Positions 20,799 to 24,269 of a stretch of DNA of 64,000 nt are shown here, piece after piece. Position 1 is the stretch's first letter. Each line of letters opens with the position of its first letter. Under the pieces are notes generated by a model, which was not told where the DNA came from, ran no database searches, and worked only from the letters and a program-made list of their open reading frames with translations. Origin of the DNA: an uncultured Alphaproteobacteria bacterium (GTDB lineage Bacteria; Pseudomonadota; Alphaproteobacteria; HIMB59); the NCBI GenBank assembly GCA_902546975.1, contig CACCLU010000001.1:124001-188000 (forward strand). The letters are read 5' to 3'. A program made the position numbers and the translations under genes.

Positions 20799-22100
20799 TT
20801 AAATTAATCTGTCTTGGAAACCTATCAATTGATTGTTAACAATGATATCTGATTTTTTAATAGGTCTAAGCAGTTCTATACCTTCTAAGCTTATACATCT
20901 ACTTAGTGCAACATAAAGTTGTCCTGGGGCAAAAGAGCCCTGACTCATATCTATAATTACTTTTTCAAATGTTTGTCCCTGGCTTTTATGAATTGTGATT
21001 GCCCAAGCCAATCTCATTGGATACTGTTTGAAAGATCCTGTTATTTCCTCTTGAACTTCTTGTTGATCATCATCATAGGTATATTGAATACGATCCCATT
21101 TTTCTTTTTTGACCTCATATATTTTATTATTGATTTTTACTTTTATTTTTTTTTGAGCTATATCATGAATTATACCAATGGATCCATTAACCCACCTTTT
21201 TTCAGGATCATTTTTAATCATAATTACTTGAGCTCCTTTTTTTAATTTTAAGATTTCATCGGTGGGAAATAATTCTTTATAAAATTGGCCAGTAGCTTGT
21301 CCCCTATAAGAAAACTCCTCCTGATTTAGCTGGCTTAAATATTTTTGATTAATGCTACTCGCTCGAGCATTAGTTGTAGTAAGTATGATTTTACCCTCAT
21401 CCATCTCAATGTGATCAGTTAAAGAGTCGTTTATATTCTCGATCTGCGTGTGAGTAATTGAGCCATCTCTAACAGAGTTAAGCAAATGAATAAAATGGTC
21501 ATCTTTTTGACGATAAATATTATGTAATTCAAGCGTTTTAAATTGGGCATCCTGGAAAATATTTGAGTGAAAGAAGAAATGACCTTTAGGATAAATGCGC
21601 TGTAGAAGTCCTGACTCATCCATATTCACAACTGGAGGTAGTTGAAATAAATCCCCAAAAACTATTAACTGAACTCCACCAAATGGTTGTGTAAGTTTTT
21701 TTCTGTGAACACGAAGGCTATAATCGATCGCATCAAAAACATCAGCACGAACCATAGATATCTCATCAATAATTAATGTTTCCAAATTTTGAAGAATTTC
21801 GATTTGTCTTACTTTTTTTATATGTCGTGTTTGAATAACCTTTGGTGGAAAACCAAAAAATGAATGAATAGTTTGTCCTTTAACTCGAATTGCAGCAACT
21901 CCTGTTGGAGCAAGAACAACTGTATTTTTCTTTGTTATAGATCGAAAGTAGGCCAATAGTGTAGACTTACCACTACCTGCTTTACCAGTAATATAAAAAT
22001 GATCTTTTGTGCTTTCTAGTTGCTCAATAATATTTTCAAATTCTTCACTGAGCTCGAAATCGTCAGGTAGTAAACTATTATAATTTCGCTTATAGCTCAT
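20799..22100 (-). CDS. PIF1/RecD-like DNA helicase
   Basis: A 433-residue superfamily 1B ATPase. Walker A GKAGSGKSTLL (about 37-47), then APTGVAAIRVKGQTIHSFFG (the PIF1 Ia signature), Walker B LIIDEISMVRADVFD, GDLFQLPPVV (motif III) and AWAITIHKSQGQTFEKV plus YVALSRC near the C-terminus (motifs V and VI). These are the canonical PIF1-like motifs; there is no RecD N-terminal domain. Likely 5'-3' DNA unwinding at structured DNA or forks. It overlaps pncC by 11 bp. Confidence 0.9.
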   Translation of the reverse strand: MSYKRNYNSLLPDDFELSEEFENIIEQLESTKDHFYITGKAGSGKSTLLAYFRSITKKNTVVLAPTGVAAIRVKGQTIHSFFGFPPKVIQTRHIKKVRQIEILQNLETLIIDEISMVRADVFDAIDYSLRVHRKKLTQPFGGVQLIVFGDLFQLPPVVNMDESGLLQRIYPKGHFFFHSNIFQDAQFKTLELHNIYRQKDDHFIHLLNSVRDGSITHTQIENINDSLTDHIEMDEGKIILTTTNARASSINQKYLSQLNQEEFSYRGQATGQFYKELFPTDEILKLKKGAQVIMIKNDPEKRWVNGSIGIIHDIAQKKIKVKINNKIYEVKKEKWDRIQYTYDDDQQEVQEEITGSFKQYPMRLAWAITIHKSQGQTFEKVIIDMSQGSFAPGQLYVALSRCISLEGIELLRPIKKSDIIVNNQLIGFQDRLI

Positions 22101-22569
22101 CTATAATTTTGTTTAACATGTGAAAACATTCTTTCACTGTGCCTTTTTGAATTTGAATTCTAGAAAGTTTTGGATTGAAATTTAATTGTTCGATATAAAT
22201 ATTTTTTTTAAAATATAATCCGATAAAAACTAAACCTACAGGTTTTAATTTAGTACCACCGTTTGGACCAGCTACACCTGTTGTTGAAAATGTTAACTGA
22301 CTTTTGGAAATTTTGTGCAGATGTAAACACATTTGAGCACATACTTGACGGCTGACTGCACCGTACCTTTTGATAGTACTAGGTTTGACTTTGAGATTTT
22401 TAATTTTTGATTCATTTGAATATGTTATCAAACCAGTTTTATAAATTTTAGATATACCAGACACAGCTGTAAATTCTGCTGCAAGCAAACCACCAGTACA
22501 AGATTCTGCTGTTGAAACTGTTATGTTTTTATCGAGTAAATATTTGATTGTTTTCGAAACGACGCTCAT
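22090..22569 (-). CDS. pncC: CinA C-terminal domain nicotinamide-nucleotide amidase
   Basis: A 159-residue stand-alone CinA C-terminal domain, which deamidates NMN to nicotinic acid mononucleotide. Family motifs are VSTAESCTGGLLAAEFT at residues about 18-34 with the catalytic Ser/Thr region, GLITYSNESK, YGAVSRQVCAQM and STTGVAGPNGGTKLKPVGLV. The N-terminal molybdopterin-like half of full CinA is absent, as in many alphaproteobacteria. First gene of the operon leading to the EamA transporter. Confidence 0.92.
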   Translation of the reverse strand: MSVVSKTIKYLLDKNITVSTAESCTGGLLAAEFTAVSGISKIYKTGLITYSNESKIKNLKVKPSTIKRYGAVSRQVCAQMCLHLHKISKSQLTFSTTGVAGPNGGTKLKPVGLVFIGLYFKKNIYIEQLNFNPKLSRIQIQKGTVKECFHMLNKIIDEL

Positions 22570-22693: not shown

Positions 22694-22712
22694 ATATGCA
22701 AATATTGCATAT
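22694..22712. promoter_or_regulatory. Perfect operator-like palindrome ATATGCAA-ATA-TTGCATAT
   Basis: A 19-bp perfect 8-3-8 inverted repeat lies 46 bp before the start of the 27-residue peptide gene. A possible -35 (TTGCAT, 22705-22710) lies within its right arm, with TATAAC at 22726-22731 as a possible -10. That is a typical repressor-site layout. GntR- or LacI-type proteins bind sites of this shape; no regulator gene adjoins it. Confidence 0.55.
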
Positions 22713-22758
22713 TACTATGAAATCCTATAACTTAATTAAAGGAATCATGGAGGTTTAA

Positions 22759-22842
22759 ATGGCAGATATGTTTACAGGACACTACCCCTTTATAGTTATG
22801 ATTATTTGGTTCATAGCAGGTTTCATCGGATCAAAAATGTGA
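22759..22842 (+). CDS. 27-residue membrane peptide
   Basis: Reads MADMFTGHYPFIVMIIWFIA followed by GFIGSKM and a stop. It has an unusually good Shine-Dalgarno sequence (GGAGG at 22749-22753, five bases before ATG), rare in this AT-rich window, so translation is credible. Nearly the whole peptide is one hydrophobic helix. It precedes the aminotransferase at 22956 and follows a strong palindrome. It might be a small membrane subunit or a leader peptide. No known family recognised. Confidence 0.6.
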   Translation: MADMFTGHYPFIVMIIWFIAGFIGSKM

Positions 22843-22850
22843 TTGTGATG

Positions 22851-22870
22851 AGGGCAGTCCACGCTGCCCT
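22851..22870 (+). terminator. GC-rich hairpin after the 27-residue peptide gene
   Basis: AGGGCAG and CTGCCCT pair perfectly around a 6-nt loop, 8 bp after the peptide stop codon. There is no U-run downstream (CTCCCTACTC follows), so it is either a weak terminator or a 3'-end stabilising or attenuating structure before the aminotransferase. Confidence 0.55.
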
Positions 22871-22889
22871 CTCCCTACTCTAAAAGATG

Positions 22890-22930
22890 ACATTATTACC
22901 CTTGCTGAAGCATTTGTGAGGGAATAATGT
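22890..22930 (+). promoter_or_regulatory. Long hairpin in the aminotransferase leader
   Basis: ACATTATTACCCT (22890-22902) pairs with AGGGAATAATGT (22919-22930), with one bulged base and a 16-nt loop. It lies 25 bp before the aminotransferase start and its Shine-Dalgarno AGGAGAG. The AGGGA of its right arm could instead pair with CTCCCT at 22871-22876. Two alternative structures are therefore possible, an attenuator-like arrangement. Function is inference. Confidence 0.45.
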
Positions 22931-22955
22931 ATCTTTATTAAAATCAGGAGAGAGA

Positions 22956-24269
22956 ATGAATAAGCCAAATAATCTAGAACCGCTGTGGATGCCTTTTACT
23001 CCTAACAAAGTATTTAAGAAAGACCCAAGAATTATTGTCGGTGCTAAAGATATGCATTTTATTAGTGACGATAATCGTGAAATTTTAGATGGTACTGCAG
23101 GGCTATGGTGTGTAAACGCCGGTCACGGTAGAAAAAAAATTCAAGAAGCTGTAAATAAACAAATTGAAAATCTTGATTACTCTCCACCTTTTCAATTTGG
23201 ACATCCGAAACAATTTGAACTAGCTAATCGTTTAGCTGAGATTTTTCCTGAAGGAATGAGTCATGTTTTCTTTTCTAATTCAGGATCTGAAGCAGTTGAT
23301 AGTGCATTAAAAATTGCACTAGCTTATCAACGTGCACGTGGACATTCATCTAAAACTAGATTAATAGGTCGCGAAAGAGGTTATCATGGTGTGGGTTTTG
23401 GAGGAATAAGCGTAGGTGGTATGGTAAAAAATAGAATGTACTTCGGATCAATGTTAAATGGTGTTGACCATTTACGCCATACCCACAATTTAAAATTAAA
23501 TGCTTTTTCAAAAGGTGAACCTGAACATGGAGCAGAACTTGCCGATGATTTAGAGCGTCTTGTTCAATTGCATGATGCATCAACTATTGCAGCTGTAATT
23601 GTTGAGCCAATTGCTGGATCAACTGGTGCGCTGCCTCCGCCTAAAGGATACTTAAAAAGATTAAGAGAGCTCTGCACAAAACATGACATTTTATTAATTT
23701 TTGATGAAGTCGTAACTGCTTTTGGCCGTATGGGAAAAGCAACTGGCTCTGAGTTTTTTGGTGTAACACCAGATATTATTTCATGTGCTAAAGGCATTAC
23801 AAATGCCACCATCCCTATGGGTGCAACCATAGTTCAAGACTTTATTTATGAGTCAATGATGGAAAATGCAGATGCTCCAATAGAATTATTTCATGGATAT
23901 ACTTACTCTGGTCATCCTGTTGCTTGCGCTGCAGCCTTAGCAACACTAGATATTTATCAAGAAGAGGGATTATTTGATAATGCTGCTCATATGGCGCCTA
24001 TTATTGAAGAAGCCGCTCATAGCCTGAAGGGAACAAAACATATAATCGATATTAGAAATTTAGGAGTGATTGCTGCACTAGAATTAGAGCCTAAAGGTAA
24101 CGCAGTTGGTGCAAGAGGGTTTGAAACCATGAAAAAAGCTTGGGATCTTGGCTTAATGGTTAGAGCTAACGGAGATACGCTCGCATTTTCTCCACCTTTA
24201 ATAATTAACGAAAATCAGGTCGATGAAATGTTTACAAAAGTAAAAAAAGCCCTGGAACAAGTAGACTAA
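22956..24269 (+). CDS. Class III omega-amino acid:pyruvate aminotransferase
   Basis: A 437-residue PLP enzyme of the beta-alanine/taurine/omega-amine:pyruvate group. The N-terminal LEPLWMPFTPNKVFKKDPR is the hallmark of beta-alanine:pyruvate transaminases. FFSNSGSEAVDSALKIA binds PLP phosphate, RGYHGVGFGGISVGGM follows, DEVVTAFGRMG carries the PLP-ring Asp and SCAKGITNATIPMGA carries the catalytic Lys. Strong Shine-Dalgarno AGGAGAGAG just ahead. Substrates could be beta-alanine, taurine or polyamine-derived amines; I cannot separate these. The leader contains the two hairpins and the 27-residue peptide gene noted above. Confidence 0.88.
   Translation: MNKPNNLEPLWMPFTPNKVFKKDPRIIVGAKDMHFISDDNREILDGTAGLWCVNAGHGRKKIQEAVNKQIENLDYSPPFQFGHPKQFELANRLAEIFPEGMSHVFFSNSGSEAVDSALKIALAYQRARGHSSKTRLIGRERGYHGVGFGGISVGGMVKNRMYFGSMLNGVDHLRHTHNLKLNAFSKGEPEHGAELADDLERLVQLHDASTIAAVIVEPIAGSTGALPPPKGYLKRLRELCTKHDILLIFDEVVTAFGRMGKATGSEFFGVTPDIISCAKGITNATIPMGATIVQDFIYESMMENADAPIELFHGYTYSGHPVACAAALATLDIYQEEGLFDNAAHMAPIIEEAAHSLKGTKHIIDIRNLGVIAALELEPKGNAVGARGFETMKKAWDLGLMVRANGDTLAFSPPLIINENQVDEMFTKVKKALEQVD

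Follow-up and report, generated by a model that had tools for sequence, protein, structure and literature searches.

Introduction

Leader peptide attenuators, such as those of trp, his and ilv, consist of a short open reading frame (ORF) followed by hairpins and then by the gene of a metabolic enzyme. Another group of short bacterial gene products is represented by AcrZ, KdpF and CydX, single-span small membrane proteins which tune transporters or oxidases. Among the archaea, the 61-amino acid protein sP36 of Methanosarcina mazei targets the ammonium transporter AmtB1 and becomes membrane-bound on nitrogen upshift (PMC10714827). With respect to the control of nitrogen genes in alphaproteobacteria, the published sites of the response regulator NtrX read CAAN3-5TTG in Brucella and GCAN9TGC in Rhodobacter, the boxes of Brucella and Sinorhizobium being also given as CAAN2-5TTG, and NtrX is reported to act as a repressor at some Sinorhizobium promoters (PMC9223101).

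The present analysis deals with a locus contained in a 64-kb window (the whole stretch of DNA that was analysed) from a marine alphaproteobacterium of the HIMB59 genus, whose genome amounts to 1.29 Mb in an assembly 94% complete. All the parts described in a first-pass annotation, i.e., a palindrome, a 27-residue peptide, two hairpins, an ω-aminotransferase and two Shine-Dalgarno sequences, occur in the window (Table 1), where their succession had been compared to a leader or an attenuator, or to a small membrane protein under common control with the enzyme. Taking into account the related genomes, it seems highly probable that the locus consists of two independent neighbouring transcription units and not of one device, the peptide being a likely member of a nitrogen regulon and NtrX the best candidate for its regulator. 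The first unit would be a stand-alone gene for a single-span membrane protein, with a 19-bp palindromic operator in its promoter region and a GC-rich hairpin acting as terminator at its end. The second would be the gene of the AptA-type ω-aminotransferase, with its own sigma-70-like promoter located inside the stretch of the second hairpin.

Table 1. Features of the locus, with positions numbered along the window.
Feature	Position	Strand	Remarks
CinA/PncC-domain protein	22090..22569	-	divergent upstream neighbour; TIGR00199
Palindromic operator-like site ATATGCA-N5-TGCATAT	22694..22712	.	candidate nitrogen-regulon box
Shine-Dalgarno GGAGG of the peptide gene	22749..22753	+	seen in the sequence; retained in most relatives
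27-amino acid single-span membrane protein MADMFTGHYPFIVMIIWFIAGFIGSKM	22759..22842	+	conserved in the genus
GC-rich hairpin 1	22850..22871	+	probable terminator of the peptide gene, without T tract
Second "hairpin" block	22886..22933	+	conserved block upstream of the aminotransferase; perfect dyad in the window's subclade only
Probable aminotransferase promoter	22902..22930	+	TTGCTG 22902-22907, 17-nt spacer, TAATGT 22925-22930
Shine-Dalgarno AGGAG of the aminotransferase	22946..22950		
Class III ω-aminotransferase, AptA type	22956..24269	+	NF052567; PF00202

Gene order in the window and in related genomes

The aminotransferase scores 719 bits against the NCBIfam AptA model, above its curated threshold of 500, and occurs in most members of the genus, whereas the region upstream of it varies. 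The layout of the window, with the peptide gene just upstream of the enzyme, is encountered in 22 genomes that form a subclade. In the nearest sister group, whose enzymes are 97-99% identical, a 95-amino acid ORF precedes the aminotransferase instead, and in deeper relatives the enzyme retains the block of the second hairpin alone, without the peptide. Two deeper members of the genus carry a short lysine-rich ORF (MGKNLDKKKEAKKPA...) directly before the aminotransferase. In HIMB59, which we take to be G135, the single-contig genome of the genus (1,410,127 bases), as well as in G004, G009, G002 and others, the peptide gene lies 3-11 kb away from the enzyme. In G002, another hydrophobic ORF of 34 amino acids (MMYQSGFIPIVVTVGIFIYGSVIVFLCLTFKSKK) precedes the aminotransferase, behind a T-tailed hairpin.

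Three genes separate the peptide gene from the aminotransferase in HIMB59, where the CinA/PncC-domain gene also adjoins the peptide gene, and this intervening block indicates that the adjacency seen in the window is derived. Downstream of the peptide gene, both HIMB59 and G004 carry an acyl-CoA synthetase gene in convergent orientation and then an enoyl-CoA hydratase gene; an OsmC-like gene stands between the latter and the aminotransferase region of G004 (all three names were assigned by eye). Since the best match to the synthetase in the genome of the window is a 47% identical paralogue located elsewhere, the block has been lost there, as far as an assembly that is 94% complete can tell. Judging from gene order, the proximity of peptide and enzyme is secondary and results from the loss of genes that once lay between them; the subclade of the window would have lost the OsmC-like, enoyl-CoA hydratase and acyl-CoA synthetase genes.

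The unity of the parts, as implied by the first-pass annotation, does not hold in the relatives, where the palindrome, peptide and first hairpin on the one hand, and the second hairpin and aminotransferase on the other hand, form modules that separate from each other. The former three elements move as a whole, also in those genomes in which the aminotransferase is distant (for the hairpin, in the lineages that were read). The position of the peptide just upstream of the enzyme in the 22 subclade genomes would suit an attenuator, in which translation of the peptide chooses between alternative hairpins controlling the aminotransferase. The retention of peptide, operator-like site and first hairpin at a distance of several kilobases from the enzyme nevertheless speaks against such a device, which is largely refuted by synteny.

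The 27-residue membrane protein

The peptide gene was found as a single copy per genome in 39 of the 52 marine alphaproteobacteria of the HIMB59 genus, and eight residues of its product are invariant, namely M, G, Y, P, F, W, G and G. Nucleotide changes mostly affect the third codon position, e.g., 4/0/8 changes at positions one, two and three at 76% core identity. Synonymous changes are common, and it is the amino acid sequence, not the codons, that is kept. Purifying selection on the peptide goes along with a conserved ribosome-binding site, as is to be expected for the gene of a small membrane protein. The ORF is free of any series of regulatory codons.

When 84,980 species genomes were scanned, 38 peptide loci came to light, all of which fit the HIMB59 clade with the exception of one bin. 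This metagenome bin, labelled Flavobacteriaceae, carries a peptide of the HIMB59 type together with the palindrome, and probably contains a mis-binned contig. No family match above noise was obtained in Pfam and NCBIfam, nor in PHROGs, where the one match had an E-value of 0.15, and no relatives of the peptide were found in viral contigs. The sister family likewise gave no convincing relative, its weak matches having E-values of 0.02-0.1. Five short matches (in G134, G035, G044, G047 and G027) lack the palindrome and were attributed to chance, and the other weak matches sit within long reading frames of at least 386 amino acids.

The 27-residue ORF is a genuine protein gene that most likely forms its own transcription unit, with a predicted expression and a predicted insertion of the product into the membrane. 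Its earlier description as a small membrane protein is strongly supported as regards the conservation across the genus and the selection at the codon level, and more tentatively as regards function. The 27-residue membrane protein, conserved and previously undescribed, adds a short and probably unannotated gene to the inventory of abundant, streamlined ocean bacteria, in a context that is likely that of nitrogen supply.

The GC-rich hairpin behind the peptide gene

Hairpin 1 is built as GAGGGCAG-N6-CTGCCCTC and folds in the window with a z-score of -3.5. Each of the eight lineages that were folded has a GC-rich hairpin 3' of the peptide gene, its sequence differing between lineages and its z-scores ranging from -3.3 to -5.3. 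Comparable hairpins follow 4 of the 65 genes of the window, as against 0.6% of random 90-mers. An equal strength of the fold in spite of a differing sequence is expected for a terminator selected on its structure, and hairpin 1 probably terminates the transcript of the peptide gene. It is devoid of a T tract, and some readthrough into the aminotransferase may be possible.

The second hairpin block and the probable promoter of the aminotransferase

The second hairpin folds in the window with a z-score of -5.1, and the entire leader with one of -3.8. The homologous block of the relatives aligns without gaps and yet shows no fold, the z-scores being +1.4, +0.6, -0.15 and 0.0, and none of the 18 pairs has changed on both sides, which leaves no compensatory pair. 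The paired bases, whose conservation had been proposed as a check, are not conserved in relatives, in contrast to the peptide and to the fold of hairpin 1, and covariation lends no support to mutually exclusive helices. At a relaxed threshold, a search of Rfam gave no match above the gathering score of any family. A riboswitch was considered and dismissed, since there is neither a second copy in the genome nor covariation. The good fold of both hairpins in the window would suit an attenuator, and yet the structure of the second one is unconserved and probably lies upstream of the start site of the enzyme transcript. Taking into account also the lack of an Rfam family and a peptide that conserves its amino acids and not its codons, with no regulatory codon run, attenuation appears very improbable, and a false lead concerning the control of the aminotransferase is thereby removed.

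What the block does keep are the elements CATNATTNC, CTTGC and GANGGAATA, in a fixed frame TTGCYN-N17-TANNNT, the part TTGCYN-N17-TA being retained across all the lineages which possess the block. At the corresponding place, the sister group, whose leader is unrelated, displays TAGACA-N17-TAAAAT, the spacer being likewise of 17 nt. Matches to the -35/-10 consensus are no more frequent in the window than expected by chance, so that a bare match is weak evidence and the promoter is deduced from the conservation of the frame. The stretch of the second hairpin most likely corresponds to a sigma-70-like promoter of the aminotransferase, from which the transcript would start near 22937, 3' of the hairpin.

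Differences between the outgroup and the window's subclade in the arms of this block run toward pairing and yield the perfect dyad. The latter is a recent gain of the subclade and could be due either to a template-switch correction of a quasi-palindrome or to selection. A coupling of the two units restricted to the subclade has to be considered in this respect: after the loss of the three genes, a leaky hairpin 1 would let the operator of the peptide also drive the aminotransferase, and the perfected dyad would insulate or regulate the readthrough. The 22 subclade genomes all combine the adjacency with the perfect dyad, the arm changes from relatives to subclade go toward pairing, and the missing T tract of hairpin 1 points in the same direction. 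However, the 22 genomes represent in effect a single evolutionary event, the dyad was picked in the first place for being a hairpin, and 12 nt separate the end of its stem from the Shine-Dalgarno sequence, which thus escapes masking. We regard this coupling as improbable and retain two independent units.

The palindrome of the peptide gene

The palindrome, spelled ATATGCAA-ATA-TTGCATAT in the window, had been reported as a perfect one of 19 bp; it does exist, but it is near-perfect, two 8-bp arms surrounding an asymmetric centre of 3 bp. Only one exact match to ATATGCAN5TGCATAT was found in the window and in the genome to which it belongs. At least 13 of the 14 arm positions match upstream of the peptide gene in all ten divergent representatives of the genus. 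Mean conservation among them reaches 97% for the arms, the centre attaining 68% and the flanks 56%. Such a score is reached by just 0.2% of 200-nt stretches drawn at random from the window. Two other interpretations were set aside: a sigma-54 promoter, the TG-to-GC spacing being 8 instead of 10 (as judged by eye), and, as the less likely form, an RNA hairpin, given that changes affect a single arm without compensation. This strong conservation lends weight to the idea of an operator, and the palindrome is accordingly placed among the candidate operators, presumably serving the peptide gene in whose promoter region it sits. A location 20-60 nt away from the start codons, on the presumed core promoter, would suit a repressor.

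The shared box and the nitrogen genes

A second copy of the site, with at most one mismatch, is present in most genomes of the genus. In all ten genomes read, it lies between an ammonium transporter gene (amt, TIGR00836) and a divergent gene of type III glutamate-ammonia ligase (TIGR03105), the start codon of this type III glutamine synthetase gene following after 20-25 nt (10/10 genomes examined). In G000, for instance, this intergenic copy occupies positions 104628-104646 of contig 4. In G015, where the peptide was not found, the box precedes a TRAP transporter gene adjoining a glutamine-synthetase-like gene. The box also occurs upstream of amt in the three genomes of the sister family examined (G025, G030 and G034), and exact copies of ATATGCA-N5-TGCATAT are found in several genomes of this family upstream of a CP-ATP-grasp gene. 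Other exact copies in the sister family lie near glycosyltransferase genes and, in one case, between an RpoH-like and a rhodopsin-like ORF (identified by eye). The few further near-matches are coding or unexplained. According to a rough by-hand estimate from base composition, chance would give some 0.7 near-matches per genome, so that the second site carries weight by its conservation and not singly. Owing to the palindrome that it has in common with the amt/type III glutamine synthetase region, the peptide most likely belongs to a nitrogen-assimilation regulon; membership in a nitrogen regulon is thus probable, and a nitrogen control of the peptide and an action on ammonium transport may be envisaged.

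The genome encodes a response regulator of 415 amino acids with receiver (REC), AAA lid and Fis-type HTH (HTH_8) domains, flanked by the end of a histidine-kinase-like gene and by a TrkA-like gene (flanks assigned by eye), which corresponds to an NtrY-NtrX-TrkA arrangement. No other NtrC-type AAA+ protein was found in the genome, and NtrC is absent. The core CAA-ATA-TTG of the box in the window fits the Brucella NtrX site; several relatives have CAT-N3-TTG, other copies depart from CAA-N3-TTG, e.g., CATAAATTG, and the Rhodobacter motif differs. A dimeric regulator would sit on the palindrome, across the core promoter, the NtrX of the NtrY-NtrX pair being the best candidate.

A different regulator, e.g., of the IclR, GntR or ArsR type, with a regulon specific for amines and not for nitrogen in general, is a possibility of some substance, if short of an even chance. 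In HIMB59, an IclR-like ORF is located about 9 kb from the amt/glnT genes, in the vicinity of GlxB/C/D-like and GS-like genes (by eye), and TGCA-N5-TGCA is unlike the Rhodobacter motif of NtrX. Against it, NtrYX is the sole NtrC-type nitrogen regulator found, and several genomes have a box that agrees with the NtrX sites of Brucella. With NtrX retained as the best candidate, a more complete picture can be drawn tentatively, which as a whole remains rather unlikely: a nitrogen-stress-controlled membrane micro-protein of the HIMB59 clade, co-expressed with Amt and the type III glutamine synthetase via a shared NtrX-type palindrome, and acting on the uptake of ammonium or amines.

Comparison with known systems

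The order of short ORF, hairpins and enzyme gene is common to the window and to the trp, his and ilv attenuators. The locus differs by a peptide free of regulatory codons and conserved as a protein, by the unconserved second hairpin, and by an ORF that also occurs away from the enzyme, whereas in an attenuator the ORF and hairpins would accompany the regulated gene from one relative to the next. AcrZ, KdpF and CydX resemble the peptide in their size, single hydrophobic span and own gene, but the peptide matches no family in Pfam, NCBIfam or PHROGs and adjoins no transporter or oxidase gene. Like sP36, it would be a small protein tied by its regulation to ammonium transport, a link suggested here by the common box. 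In contrast to sP36, with which no sequence relation has been established, it is a predicted integral single-span protein of 27 residues. Finally, the box shares with the NtrX boxes of other alphaproteobacteria a dyad with a CA-Nx-TG core, in the company of ntrYX, and differs by the longer conserved arms (ATATGCA) and the fixed N5 centre of a candidate site which offers a concrete DNA element for the nitrogen regulon of a lineage devoid of NtrC.
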